Of a stretch of DNA of 32,771 nucleotides, positions 530-17,283 are shown piece by piece. A model generated the notes under the pieces. It ran no database searches and was not told where the DNA came from. It saw nothing but the letters and a program-made list of their open reading frames with translations. The first letter of the stretch is position 1. The number at the start of each line of letters is the position of its first letter. Position numbers and translations under genes: made by a program. Source of the stretch: Verrucomicrobiota bacterium. GTDB lineage: Bacteria > Verrucomicrobiota > Verrucomicrobiia > Chthoniobacterales > UBA10450. The stretch lies in NCBI GenBank assembly GCA_003220155.1, contig QHRO01000251.1, forward strand, positions 1 through 32,771. The letters are read 5' to 3'.

Positions 530-3130
530 CTAATTGCTTTCGTCTTCGTCTACCGGCTTTGCCCGGCGGACTTCCGGCTCAGAAGCTTGTGGGGTTGGTC
601 GCGCTATCGGAATGGCGCGGCGGACTTCGACGGGGGAGCCGGATGGCTTCATCACCTTTGTTACCGTGTCTGTCGGTAACGGTGCAGGACTCGGCGCGCT
701 CGCTTCCCCTTCCGCGGGTTGCACCGGTATCGCTTTCAAAACCGGTTTTGTTGGATCGGGCATTTCTTCTGACGTCACCGCTTTTTCGGCTTCGGGCGAG
801 GGCGAAGACGCGGGTTTCGGATAAACCGTCGCGTGCACGGAATTATATGGGTCGCGCGTGGCCAGGAGCGTCGGCCCTTTCGGCGTGATCGGCGTCACCG
901 CGTTGGTGTCAACCGCGAGGGCCGCCCGCGGAAATTCCGACGGCGGCAGATCGCGCGTGAGCGAAGCGTGCAGTTCTCCGTGAACATTGCATGGCTCGGT
1001 TGGTTTTTGGTCGGACGTCGCGAGCTCGAGATAGGTTGTTTTCTCTTCGGTCTCGCCCTCACTCGTTTTGATTTTTTCAACGCATTTGTCGGTCGCAAGC
1101 AAACCGGATTTCGCGCAAATGCTCACTCGCTCCAGACCACGCGGCTGCGAAATCTCCTTCGGCGGATAATGCTCGGTCGAGGCGTTCATTACATCGACCC
1201 ATACCGGCAATGCGATGTCGTGCCCGAAGGCGCCGCGAAAAATTCTCTGCGGCTTGTCGAACCCAGCCCAGACTGCACAGGTGATCGCGCTATCGTATCC
1301 TGCGAAAAGCACGTCGGTAAAATCGTAAGCGGTCCCGGTTTTTCCGGCTGCTTCCATTTTCTTCAAACCGAAGTTCGGGCGCGCGGCATTACCGGTCCCT
1401 TTGTCGAGCGCGTCAACCAGACACGAGTGCACTTCGTAGGCGATCTCAGGTTTAATTACGTTCTGCTTGCCGTAATCGTGTTGCGCGTGCCAAACCGTCC
1501 CGTCCTTTTCTTCGATCCGTTCCAGAACATGCGGCAGTTTCGGTCGCCAACCGCCGTTCGGGAAAATGGTGTAGGCCAGTGCCAGTTCCGCCAAAGTAAC
1601 TTCACTGCTCCCAAGAAATGTCGCCGGATAAGGGCGCAGCGGCGATTTCATTCCGGCGTTACGACAAAGCTGGATCACATTGTCGACTCCGGGGTTCATC
1701 CCGAGGCGCACGGTCGCACCATTTTTCGATTTCGAGAGTGCCTCGCGTGCGGTGATTGGCCCCTCGTAGCGGTTCTCCGCACTCTCAGGTCCCCATTCAC
1801 CGAGAATTCCAGTCGTCCCGCCGATCATGACCGCGCGATTATCGAGCGCGGAATCCTCCACCACCGAGCCAGGGAAAATTCCATTCTCAAAGGCGGCTGC
1901 GAAAACAAACGGTGTCATCGCCGTCCCAGCCGGACGCCGGGCCTGCAACGCGCGATCGTATTGGTTATGCTCGAAATCGCGGCCGCCCACCAGCGCAAGC
2001 ATGCCGCCGGTCGCGTTATCCAGCACGATCACCGCGCCCTGCAAATAGTCGGGGACCGCTGGCGGGCTGCTTCCTGGGCGCGCCTTGCGGAACGTCGCGG
2101 TGTATTCCGCATAGGTCGGATGCCCATAGTCAGGATGCTTTTCCGCACGATCGAGGTGTGACCGCAACGAGTCCTCGGCCGCTTTTTGCAAATCGGAATC
2201 GATTGTGGTGTAAATGCGAAAACCTTCGTTCATCGCGCGGTCCCATCCCACCGCCTCGATCACCTTCTGGCGGATGTAATCGACGGCGTATGTTTGTCCC
2301 TGAGCATTCTGCCGGTTACCGATAAGGACGTCTTCCGATTGCGCGGCGGCGCAACGCTGGCGATCGACGAAATCGAGATCGCGCATCCGGCCCAGGACGA
2401 CGTTGCGCGATTCACGCGCCGCCGCCCGGTCCGCCCAGGGCGAAAGCCGATTCGGACTTCTGATGATGCCGGCCAGAGTCGCGCATTCCACCAGCGACAT
2501 CTCGCGCGCCGGTTTATCGAAATAACCGCGCGCGGCTGCTTCGGCCCCGTAGAGTCCGCCGCCGAAGTAGATTCGGTTCAGATACAGCTCCATGATTTTT
2601 TGTTTGTCGAAATGCTGCTCGATTCGTTCAGCGACGAAGATTTCAAGAAGTTTTCGCCGATACGTTCTCTCTTTGAGAGCGAAACTGTTGCGCGCCAGTT
2701 GCTGGGTGATTGTGCTAGCGCCCTGGCGGACGTGGCCGGCGAGAAAATTTGCCAGAGCCGCGCGCACGATGCCAAAGAGATCGTAGCCGCTGTGCTGATA
2801 AAATTTGGTGTCTTCCATTGCGACCACGGCGTTCACCAGGTCGCGCGGCAATTGATCATAGGGGATGGTCTCGCGGTTTTCGACATAGATTTGGCCAAAA
2901 ATTTTTCCGTTTCGATCCAGAATCACACTGGCCGATTCCATCTGTTCTAGCTTGCTCAGATCGTAGGTCGCGGCTTCCGCCTTCAATTCCGACGAGACAA
3001 TTCCGAAATAGATGGCGCCGAAAATTATTACGAGCAGCACAATCAGCGCGGGCAGGTAAAATTGGGGCCGGGCGTACCAGGGCCGCCGGTAGCGGTGTGG
3101 AAGAGTTGGCATCAAAAACGAAACAGGCAT
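530..3130 (-). CDS. Class A penicillin-binding protein (PBP1A-like) with altered transpeptidase motif
   Basis: Bifunctional peptidoglycan glycosyltransferase/transpeptidase of the inner membrane, about 866 residues from the ATG at 3130. Order: short basic tail, one membrane segment (about residues 25-45), GT51 glycosyltransferase domain with EDTKFYQHSG (catalytic Glu about 106), GASTITQQLAR and the IMELYLNRIYFG motif, then a transpeptidase domain and a Pro-rich C-terminal tail. In the transpeptidase domain the SxN motif (SKN, about 468-470) and KTGTA (about 597) are present. The position of the nucleophile SxxK reads T-A-M-T (codons 1913-1924), so acylation by the usual serine looks impossible. 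The glycosyltransferase half looks intact. A longer frame opens with TTG at 3217, but that would overlap the start of the divergent methyltransferase. ATG 3130 or ATG 3112 is more likely; neither has a clear Shine-Dalgarno. Forms an operon with the gene one base downstream. Confidence 0.9.
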   Translation of the reverse strand: MPVSFLMPTLPHRYRRPWYARPQFYLPALIVLLVIIFGAIYFGIVSSELKAEAATYDLSKLEQMESASVILDRNGKIFGQIYVENRETIPYDQLPRDLVNAVVAMEDTKFYQHSGYDLFGIVRAALANFLAGHVRQGASTITQQLARNSFALKERTYRRKLLEIFVAERIEQHFDKQKIMELYLNRIYFGGGLYGAEAAARGYFDKPAREMSLVECATLAGIIRSPNRLSPWADRAAARESRNVVLGRMRDLDFVDRQRCAAAQSEDVLIGNRQNAQGQTYAVDYIRQKVIEAVGWDRAMNEGFRIYTTIDSDLQKAAEDSLRSHLDRAEKHPDYGHPTYAEYTATFRKARPGSSPPAVPDYLQGAVIVLDNATGGMLALVGGRDFEHNQYDRALQARRPAGTAMTPFVFAAAFENGIFPGSVVEDSALDNRAVMIGGTTGILGEWGPESAENRYEGPITAREALSKSKNGATVRLGMNPGVDNVIQLCRNAGMKSPLRPYPATFLGSSEVTLAELALAYTIFPNGGWRPKLPHVLERIEEKDGTVWHAQHDYGKQNVIKPEIAYEVHSCLVDALDKGTGNAARPNFGLKKMEAAGKTGTAYDFTDVLFAGYDSAITCAVWAGFDKPQRIFRGAFGHDIALPVWVDVMNASTEHYPPKEISQPRGLERVSICAKSGLLATDKCVEKIKTSEGETEEKTTYLELATSDQKPTEPCNVHGELHASLTRDLPPSEFPRAALAVDTNAVTPITPKGPTLLATRDPYNSVHATVYPKPASSPSPEAEKAVTSEEMPDPTKPVLKAIPVQPAEGEASAPSPAPLPTDTVTKVMKPSGSPVEVRRAIPIARPTPQASEPEVRRAKPVDEDESN

Positions 3131-3210
3131 GCGGGGACGTAAAAAAGAGAAATAGACTTGGAGGGAAAGCTTAGGCGCAATTCGCCCGAAAATCCAAAGG
3201 CCAAAGAACC

Positions 3211-4386
3211 GTGGCAAACTCCGAACTAATCCAGATTATCCGTGCTGAGATTGGCGCGAACGGCCCGATCTCCTTCGCGCGCTTTATGGAGCTGACGCTC
3301 TATCACCCGAAGTACGGGTATTATGCCAGCGGACGCGCTCGCATTGGCCGGCGCGGCGATTTTTTTACTAACGTGAGTGTGGGACCGCTCTTCGGAAAAC
3401 TTCTCGCGGCCCAGTTCGTGGAAATTTGGGAGAAGCTTGGACGGCCGGGCGATTTCGAAATCGTGGAACAGGGTGCCCACGACGGTCTATTTGCGGCCGA
3501 TGCGCTGAGTGCGCTGCGGCAATCAGCCGGCGATTGTTTTGCCGCAACTTCCTATTGCATCGTCGAGCCGTTTCCGATCTGGCGGGAGCGACAGCAAAAA
3601 AATCTGCACGAGTTCGCCGAAAAAACTTCCTGGGTCGCGTCGATTGACGAAATCGCGCCCTTCGTTGGAATTCATTTTTCCAACGAACTATTCGATTCAT
3701 TGCCGGTGCATCTCATCGTTTCCGGCGGCGTTGCGAACGGTGCCACGGTTTGGAACGAAAAATTCGTCTCGGAACACAGGCTTTCAGCCTGTGCGCCCAG
3801 CGGAGTTGAACTCCGCTGCCATAGCACGCCGTTCACCTTTGTAACGGCGAAGGTTAGTGACCGTGACCTGCTACTCTATCATCTTGGACTTTTCCCGGCT
3901 GGCTTTGAAACGGAAGTGAATTTGGCCGCGCCGAAACTAATGAGCGAGATCGCCACCAAACTTTCGCGCGGACTCATTCTCACAATCGACTACGGTTTTC
4001 CCCGGAAGGAGTTCTACTCGCTTCGCCGCAGCCAGGGATCTCTCCAGGTCCGCGCGAAACAAAAAAAGCTATCGTCGCCGTTCCAGCAGATCGGGTTGGC
4101 CGATATCTCCGCTCATGTCGAGTGGACCAGTCTGGCCGAAGCAGCGCAATCATCGGGGGCAAGGTCAATTAGTTTTACCGACCAACATCATTTTCTTACG
4201 GGGATTATTTCGAAATTTTTTCCAGACACGGACTTTGACGTTTCTGAAAAACGCGCCCTCCAAACCTTGCTGCATCCGGAAATGCTGGGCCGAAATTTCC
4301 AGGTGTTGGCCCTCGGCAAAAAATTTCACGAGATGCTTAGCGGGTTTCAATTCGCGCGTGATCCCGGCGTGGCCCTTGGGATTTGA
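3211..4386 (+). CDS. SAM-dependent methyltransferase, MidA/NDUFAF7 family
   Basis: 391-residue member of the MidA/NDUFAF7 (DUF185, COG1565) family of class I methyltransferases. In mitochondria the family methylates an arginine of a complex I subunit; the bacterial substrate is unknown. Family marks are GPISFARFMELTLYHPKYGYY near the N-terminus, GDFFTNVSVGPLFGKLLA, the acidic FSNELFDSLPVHLI segment and LTIDYGFPRKEFYSL. The SAM glycine motif reads EQGAHDG where ExGxGxG is common. The start is GTG at 3211, chosen because the conserved N-terminal helix begins there; AAAGG lies about 10 bases upstream. Residues about 188-206 are encoded by an inserted hairpin repeat (3771-3827) that keeps the frame. 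The gene is divergent from the PBP gene and convergent with the anti-sigma-like gene. Confidence 0.88.
   Translation: MANSELIQIIRAEIGANGPISFARFMELTLYHPKYGYYASGRARIGRRGDFFTNVSVGPLFGKLLAAQFVEIWEKLGRPGDFEIVEQGAHDGLFAADALSALRQSAGDCFAATSYCIVEPFPIWRERQQKNLHEFAEKTSWVASIDEIAPFVGIHFSNELFDSLPVHLIVSGGVANGATVWNEKFVSEHRLSACAPSGVELRCHSTPFTFVTAKVSDRDLLLYHLGLFPAGFETEVNLAAPKLMSEIATKLSRGLILTIDYGFPRKEFYSLRRSQGSLQVRAKQKKLSSPFQQIGLADISAHVEWTSLAEAAQSSGARSISFTDQHHFLTGIISKFFPDTDFDVSEKRALQTLLHPEMLGRNFQVLALGKKFHEMLSGFQFARDPGVALGI
3771..3827 (+). repeat. Half-copy of paired-hairpin element inside the methyltransferase gene
   Basis: This 57-base stretch matches the left half of the element at 31522-31635. It shares GGAACACAG, a variable hairpin, TGTGCGCCCAGCGGAGTT and ACTCCGCTG. 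It holds two hairpins: CACAGGCT-ttc-AGCCTGTG and AGCGGAGT-tga-ACTCCGCT. Its length is a multiple of three and it is translated in frame as part of the methyltransferase, roughly SEHRLSACAPSGVELRCHS, a Cys/Ser-rich stretch unlike its surroundings. Compared with the other copy, the first stem differs by a paired change (G-C to A-T), so pairing is kept. Confidence 0.8.
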
Positions 4387-4401: not shown

Positions 4402-4463
4402 AAGGAGCGGCGGTCTCCGACCGCCGTTTTGTTTAGTCGGCGGTTTGGAAACCGCCGCTCCTT
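4402..4463. repeat. Palindromic paired-hairpin element, likely bidirectional terminator
   Basis: The outer inverted repeat AAGGAGCGGCGGT / ACCGCCGCTCCTT encloses two inner hairpins: CGGCGGTC-tcc-GACCGCCG (4408-4426), followed by TTTTGTTT, and CGGCGGTTT-gg-AAACCGCCG (4438-4457). It lies exactly between two convergent genes (methyltransferase ending 4386, anti-sigma-like gene ending 4506). The first hairpin plus T run fits an intrinsic terminator for the plus-strand gene. Related copies are at 10230-10293 and 17225-17283. Confidence 0.8.
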
Positions 4464-10227: not shown

Positions 10228-11400
10228 TCAGGGAGCGGCGGTCTCCTGACCCCCGTGTGGTTGAGTCGGCGACCCGGAACGCATCGCTCCTTGATCAAGC
10301 GTCCTGGCGTGTTCGACTCCGCGCTTGGTGGTGAGATAGACGGCGAAGCTGCCAAGCCAGTGTCCGCCTTCGTAATGCTCGCCTGTTACCGCTGCCAATC
10401 CGGCGCGACGGTGCGCATCGGCTGTGGCTTGCAGGGCGGGACGGCGTGGATCGTCTGAGGGTAGCGCGGAAAGAATTCCTTCCAGCATCCAGGCACGGCT
10501 TAAATTCAAACCATCAAGGTGCGCAAGCTTCGGGTCGCTCGGATCAGGCGAAACCGTGACCGGCAACCAATCGGCATTGGCCGTCGTCGGAATCTGCGGC
10601 ATGAATTCTTTCAGCCACTTCGCGAATTCATTTTGCGGAAGCACCCTGCGCATCACGTCCGCTTCGCCTAAACAGGGCGAGAGAAAATCTTCACCGGAAG
10701 GCTCGTAAGCGAGCGGACAATTTTTATCCGCAAGAAAGAACTTCTTTGCCGAATCGCTAACTAGTTTGGCCAATTCTTGATTTCCAGCGGTGCGTGCATA
10801 ATCCAACATCAGTCCGAGACCGAAAGCGGTTTGATCGTGTTCACCAATCCGGACCGGATGAGATAACTTCGGCAGCCAGGTTTTCAATCGTTCCACTGCC
10901 GCCTCCTCGAGCGGTCGCAGATTCGCCATCATCTCGCGCGCTTCTGGATCGTCCCATTCCCGCAATTCCGCGCATAATTGCAACGACCATGACAACCCGT
11001 AGGGCCGCTCGAAGCTAGCTCGACCTTTTCCGCGAAGATAATTGGCTTCCTCTTTCAGGTTCTCGGCGGTGAGGCTGTTCTTCAGTGCGTCGCGGGCGGT
11101 GGGAGCAAACGGCGCATCCGGGAAGGTACGGACCAGCCGGACGAGCAGCCAATGTCCGTGTACGGAGGAGTGCCAATCGTAGCAACCACAGAAGGCGGGC
11201 GTGAGTTTGCGCGGCGGCGCAACATCGGCATCGCTGTTCAGGACGTGGCTGATCTTGTTCGGGTATTCCTGGTGGACGCAGGCGAGGGCGAGTTTGGCGA
11301 ATCGTTCCGCCGAAGTCGCATCAAATGTTGGCGCGCTTGTGTTCTCGGCGGCCAGAGGGAACAGGGGAAACAAAATGAGTGCCGTTGCTAAGATTCTCAT
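10228..11400 (-). CDS. DUF2891 family protein, exported
   Basis: 390 residues with a signal peptide (about 1-19, MRILATALILFPLFPLAAE). The body matches the DUF2891 family: FCGCYDWHSSVHGHW near residues 70-84, RPYGLSWSLQL, EHDQTAFGLGLMLDYA, EDFLSPCLGEADVM and HWLGSFAVYLTT close to the C-terminus. The family has no established activity; the alpha-helical repeats suggest an alpha/alpha barrel like some glycan-acting enzymes (inference). The family homology ends near VYLTTKRGVEHA, and the last ~23 residues (LDQGAMRSGSPTQPHGGQETAAP) are encoded by a degenerate hairpin element (10230-10293), so the native stop was probably lost. Start ATG 11400 has no clear ribosome site. Confidence 0.88.
   Translation of the reverse strand: MRILATALILFPLFPLAAENTSAPTFDATSAERFAKLALACVHQEYPNKISHVLNSDADVAPPRKLTPAFCGCYDWHSSVHGHWLLVRLVRTFPDAPFAPTARDALKNSLTAENLKEEANYLRGKGRASFERPYGLSWSLQLCAELREWDDPEAREMMANLRPLEEAAVERLKTWLPKLSHPVRIGEHDQTAFGLGLMLDYARTAGNQELAKLVSDSAKKFFLADKNCPLAYEPSGEDFLSPCLGEADVMRRVLPQNEFAKWLKEFMPQIPTTANADWLPVTVSPDPSDPKLAHLDGLNLSRAWMLEGILSALPSDDPRRPALQATADAHRRAGLAAVTGEHYEGGHWLGSFAVYLTTKRGVEHARTLDQGAMRSGSPTQPHGGQETAAP
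10230..10293. repeat. Degenerate GGAGCGGCGG-type element forming the gene end
   Basis: The sequence aligns base by base with the element at 4402-4463: AGGGAGCGGCGGTCTCC, then GTTGAGTCGGCG, then ATCGCTCCTTGA. Several stem positions have decayed. It overlaps the last codons and the TGA stop (10228-10230) of the DUF2891 gene. Confidence 0.7.
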
Positions 11401-17224: not shown

Positions 17225-17283
17225 GTAGCGGCGGTCTGTGACCGCCGGAATTCAGAAGATCGGCACTCACAGAGCGCCGCTAC
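17225..17283. repeat. Paired-hairpin element (GGAGCGGCGG-related)
   Basis: Outer inverted repeat GTAGCGGCG / CGCCGCTAC. Inner hairpins are CGGCGGTC-tgt-GACCGCCG (17229-17247) and CGGCACTC-aca-GAGCGCCG with one mismatch. It shares the GCGGCGGTCT core with the element at 4402. It lies between the small gene (ending 17330) and the ComA-like gene (starting 17151), both on the minus strand. Confidence 0.75.

Follow-up and report, generated by a model that had tools for sequence, protein, structure and literature searches.

Class A penicillin-binding proteins (PBPs) are universally annotated as bifunctional enzymes and counted among the penicillin targets. Members of the PBP1A family (TIGR02074), such as E. 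coli MrcA and the P. aeruginosa PBP1a of PDB entry 4oon, combine a membrane anchor, the GT51 glycosyltransferase motifs and a transpeptidase fold. Monofunctional GT51 enzymes (MtgA/SgtB) polymerize strands without crosslinking them and have no transpeptidase domain at all. Polymerization can also be uncoupled by engineering: E. coli PBP1A and PBP1B still polymerize when the catalytic serine (S473 and S510, respectively) is mutated, and in pneumococcus, class B PBPs carry out crosslinking alongside a class A PBP whose transpeptidase domain is inactive (PMC4632607). A non-catalytic role has been reported for PBP3 of C. difficile (PMC12539705). In the open-access literature, we found no described case of natural pseudo-transpeptidases, TxxK PBPs or inactive class A transpeptidase domains, an absence that is weak evidence in itself.

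The window, a stretch of 32,771 nucleotides from a Verrucomicrobiota genome of the order Chthoniobacterales, encodes on its minus strand a class A PBP with TxxT replacing SxxK (positions 530-3217), recognized from its open frame, its Pfam and NCBIfam matches and its orthologues. We refer to the subfamily by a label coined in this analysis, PBP-T. The frame is uninterrupted and spans 895 codons counted from the first TTG, with ATG 3130 or ATG 3112 a more likely start than this TTG. The hydrophobic N-terminal segment FYLPALIVLLVIIFGAIYFGIV, read in the translation at 2996-3061 (minus strand, as for all features of the gene), is a probable membrane anchor. The GT51 domain (2384-2908; Pfam PF00912, 206.7 bits) contains EDTKF, the EDxxF motif with the catalytic Glu, at 2801-2815 and the motif GASTITQQLARN at 2687-2722. 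The transpeptidase domain (1289-2038; Pfam PF00905, 69-70 bits) gives a frame-level match of 69.2 bits against a cut-off of 22.1, and includes SKN as the SxN motif (1721-1729) and KTGT as the KTG motif (1331-1342), both intact by alignment. A 442-codon open frame on the plus strand (833-2161), antisense to the transpeptidase domain, is probably a codon-usage shadow.

The window protein thus resembles the PBP1A family in its anchor, GT51 motifs, transpeptidase fold by sequence, SxN, KTG and collinear alignment. It differs by lacking both the Ser and the Lys of SxxK, the catalytic dyad of a bifunctional PBP1A-type enzyme, by carrying a segment of its own, GGxxGILGEW, and by narrowly scoring below the curated TIGR02074 cut-off (501.9 vs 508.75 bits). 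It also falls below the cut-off of the monofunctional GT51 model TIGR02070 (147 vs 182.65) and gave no match to anti-phage defence models. PBP-T shares with MtgA/SgtB a predicted polymerization without crosslinking but, unlike them, retains a full, conserved transpeptidase domain. With the laboratory serine mutants it would share a glycosyltransferase working without transpeptidase chemistry, whereas those are engineered and PBP-T is a natural, ancient and conserved subfamily.

Elsewhere in the window, the palindrome ACAGGCTTTCAGCCTGT lies at 3776-3792 within the coding frame of a Methyltransf_28 (PF02636) gene at 3211-4386. A genome-wide search for the pattern ACAGGCTNNCAGCCTGT gave more than a dozen matches, and none for the reversed control, which suggests that this coding frame has been invaded by a repeat element. 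Palindromic GCGGTCnnnGACCGCCG elements at 4410-4426 and 17231-17247 exceed the shuffle expectation and are probably repeat elements or terminators. A DUF2891 protein is encoded at 10228-11400 (456 bits).

At 1924-1913 the codons ACG-GCG-ATG-ACA read T-A-M-T. Alignment with HMMER of the segment RRPAGTAMTPFVFAAAFENG to the SxxK segments of the solved PBP1a chains 4oon (KRQPGSSFKPFIYSAALDNG) and 3udf requires no gaps, and pairs TAMT with SSFK, the upstream flank RRPAG with KRQPG and the downstream flank PFVFAAAFENG with PFIYSAALDNG of 4oon. In this register, the first threonine occupies the position of the nucleophilic serine and the last that of the lysine. The placement of TAMT at exactly the Ser-x-x-Lys site, as proposed in an earlier sequence-only reading, is thereby confirmed, and a misaligned motif is ruled out. 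The same reading had SKN, KTG and the GT51 motifs retained, and all of them were found. Across PBP-T, the rows covering the EDTKF columns have only E, D and F at the respective positions, G, S and TQQLAR of the second motif are near-invariant, and the catalytic motifs as a group (EDxxF, GASTITQQ and the second Glu motif) are invariant or nearly so. A sequencing or assembly error can be rejected, since the same-genus genomes readable here all have TAMT or TAIT and synonymous Thr codons differ across the subfamily.

Relatives from 42 loci of public collections, mostly of Chthoniobacterales and including Ca. Udaeobacter, have threonine at the serine column wherever it is readable, and K, L, Q or T at the lysine column. 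We then gathered orthologues across the family, the order, the class and within the phylum. Outside one genus, described below, threonine occupies the serine column in every PBP-T row: in 186 aligned frames, some of which are one gene fetched twice or in pieces, and in 16 frames from a later set; 151 sequences are left after thinning at 90% identity. The lysine column is far more varied (T 70, L 65, K 28, V 13, I 4, A 3, and Q, G and S once each among the 186), with H and F brought in by the 16 additional sequences. Further motif changes are common: the Akkermansia family has SKI, SKV or SKL in place of SxN, many other members have GKN there, and KTG is replaced by KSG, KPG or KGG in some. PBP-T is found throughout Chthoniobacterales and in two further families of the class, that of Akkermansia and its kin (f15) and f35, and is present in the surveyed genomes of the family that are at least 90% complete. 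The proposal that TxxT might be a clade feature is therefore borne out for its threonine, which the alignment of Verrucomicrobiota class A PBPs shows to be order-wide and to extend to Akkermansia and kin.

More degenerate extra copies of 697-707 aa occur in two genomes that already hold another PBP-T (L231 in G243 and L308 in G481); both have lost KTG (WGGT and FSGS, respectively). In family f8 of the order, the reduced single-contig 0.9 Mb genomes G089 and G098 yielded no class A PBP above the search threshold, and their 2.5 Mb relative G105 has PBP-T.

The genome of the window encodes a second class A PBP (L002), 39% identical to PBP-T, with GSSFK, SRN and KTGT intact, as well as class B PBPs. 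A. muciniphila (G267) has the same pair: its PBP-T (L207) reads GTAIL, SKI and KTGT, and its SxxK paralogue (L218) GSLFK, SRN and KTGT. The Akkermansia family is thus altered in two of the three motifs, and the Akkermansia protein scores 382.2 against the TIGR02074 cut-off of 508.75. The M60 protease frame of G267 matches PDB 7sci over its full length (1145 bits), which is the structure of A. muciniphila AM0627 (PMC9118916). A genome survey lists a class A PBP as retained in A. muciniphila, apparently without a motif analysis (PMC8406291). The SxxK paralogues resemble PBP-T in architecture, with about 39% identity, and form its sister clade; they differ in having invariant SxxK, SxN and KTGT columns and no GILGEW insertion.

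In the tree, rooted by assumption between the two paralogues, PBP-T forms one clade against the SxxK proteins with a support of 98-99; these are two ancient class A PBP paralogues. To our knowledge serine at this site is universal in the superfamily, and we therefore regard it as the older state. The exception to threonine within PBP-T is a genus of another family of the order (g40, family f6), whose seven sequences (L275, L277-L282) read GSxFK, in one case GSAFL, and are placed deep inside the threonine clade, six of the seven with the full SxxK/SxN/KTG set. A single irreversible Ser-to-Thr change, as read from the first tree, was overturned by this genus once the order was sampled more widely. 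A back-change from Thr to Ser would explain this most simply, although counting alone does not separate gain from loss. The sequence-only reading would have taken SxxK in close relatives as a mark of local error or decay; no close relative showed it, and the SxxK orthologues found all belong to this one genus.

The two columns of the former dyad have behaved very differently. Over the whole tree, with g40 included, the Ser/Thr column accounts for 2 changes and the lysine column for 15 (19 in the larger first set). Within PBP-T alone, where the 281 transpeptidase columns have a median of 10 changes, the Ser/Thr column has 1 and the lysine column 14, indicating that the lysine has been freed from constraint and the threonine has not. 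No change is seen within PBP-T at the K and G of KTG or at the E and W of the GEW loop, nor at any catalytic column of the SxxK paralogues. Across the subfamily, all four Thr codons are in use at the threonine column.

Pairwise dN/dS values (Nei-Gojobori) for PBP-T in the genus of the window are 0.060 for the glycosyltransferase domain, 0.057 for the transpeptidase domain and 0.139 for the C-terminal tail, and 0.046 and 0.035 for the two domains of the SxxK paralogue; because dS exceeds 1, these genus values are rough, and the relevant part is the comparison of domains within one gene. In Akkermansia and kin, the corresponding PBP-T values are 0.082, 0.053 and 0.151. The crosslinking domain is kept by purifying selection as strong as that on the polymerase domain. 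PBP-T also carries, beside the pocket and between the SxxK and SxN regions, the segment VMxGGxxGILGEW(G/A)xE, part of which is inserted when compared with the SxxK paralogue. Its near-invariant core GGxxGILGEW reads GGTTGILGEW in the window protein (1793-1822). GEW is present in 186 of the 186 aligned PBP-T rows and absent from the SxxK paralogues. A degenerate DNA pattern for GGxxGILGEW was found in 44 of 388 genomes of the phylum, with none for the reversed control; all 44 belong to Chthoniobacterales or to f15 and f35, and none comes from elsewhere in the phylum, so PBP-T characterizes a part of a single class. By its threonine, this segment and its place in the clade, the window protein is a member. 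AlphaFold models were discarded owing to mean pLDDT values of 43.6 (full length, 26 orthologues) and 35.3 (transpeptidase domain, 37 orthologues).

The explanation that we consider probable, on the strength of sequence comparison, is that PBP-T is a glycan polymerase whose transpeptidase pocket is retained in a non-canonical and probably non-crosslinking form, and which is expected to be insensitive to beta-lactams. PBP-T would polymerize lipid II into glycan strands, while the canonical acyl-Ser intermediate could not form; in its absence, both crosslinking by the normal route and acylation by beta-lactams would be missing. We thus infer a loss of crosslinking activity, and an insensitivity of PBP-T to beta-lactams can reasonably be expected. 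The former pocket would act as a non-catalytic module, most likely binding stem peptides or a partner, and the strands would be passed to an active transpeptidase, either the SxxK paralogue or a class B PBP. As the dyad has been lost from a domain otherwise kept nearly unchanged, the strands are probably built without the usual penicillin-sensitive crosslinking. Such a mechanism is consistent with the serine-mutated class A PBPs, the class B partners and the non-catalytic PBP role in C. difficile described above. The sequence-only reading had proposed a glycosyltransferase whose crosslinking domain is inactive or altered. This stands insofar as the lysine column has drifted, serine has become threonine clade-wide and SxN or KTG is often damaged further; a plainly inactive domain, on the other hand, leaves the strong conservation of the domain, of the threonine and of the KTG lysine unexplained.

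The same conservation counts against our main reading, as the threonine is a possible nucleophile and a merely dead site needs neither it nor the KTG lysine, both near-invariant. The threonine might be a working nucleophile, with PBP-T an acyl-transferase of altered chemistry that relies on another base, such as the KTG lysine or an acidic residue in the GGxxGILGEW loop, and functions as a low-affinity or beta-lactam-insensitive transpeptidase or carboxypeptidase. The constancy of the threonine save for one back-change, its encoding by all four codons, the absence of change at the KTG K and G and in the GEW loop, and the return of a full motif set in g40 agree with this. The lysine is kept (TxxK) in about one sixth of the PBP-T rows, and SxN and KTG are both intact in 31 of these 34 compared with roughly 37% of the rows without it, a contrast that comes down to only about six kinship-independent pairs; these TxxK proteins and the serine-bearing genus may be active. 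In most members, however, the lysine column holds Leu, Val, Ile, Phe or Thr. Akkermansia and kin have lost SxN, L231 and L308 have a broken KTG, and our search of the open-access literature found no description of a PBP with a threonine nucleophile. We consider this account unlikely. Its boldest form is slightly more doubtful: a natural family of threonine-based peptidoglycan acyltransferases that need no SxxK lysine, are intrinsically beta-lactam-insensitive and have persisted for a very long time in Akkermansia and the soil Verrucomicrobiota, one lineage having returned to serine.

Ranking just after a working nucleophile, and again improbable, is a threonine kept for structure only (helix start, fold stability) in a domain that serves the polymerase solely as a structural module and binds no ligand. 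Threonine can stand for serine at a helix start, the dN/dS values show a constraint covering the whole domain, and the GT51 activity of class A PBPs often depends on the remainder of the protein; against this, few columns are as constrained as those of the pocket-side K-x-G motif and the new GEWG loop, beyond what a scaffold would lead one to expect. Finally, a relaxed paralogue decaying towards loss, or an assembly error, could explain the change of both catalytic residues and the further motif loss in some members, but is refuted by the same state in independently assembled genomes of many genera, the complete frames, a dN/dS of about 0.06, the four Thr codons and the presence in the near-complete genomes of the family, and can be given hardly any credence.

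PBP-T is thus an ancient, widespread subfamily in which the dyad has been lost and the domain remains fully selected; it includes one of the two class A PBPs of A. muciniphila and also occurs in a highly abundant group of soil bacteria that centres on Ca. Udaeobacter, whose beta-lactam tolerance has so far been attributed to beta-lactamases (PMC7343977). If the reading of PBP-T as a non-crosslinking polymerase is true, polymerization and crosslinking would be split between two paralogues in these bacteria. PBP-T would then offer a natural test of the role of a non-crosslinking transpeptidase domain, and would bear on the beta-lactam tolerance of its hosts.
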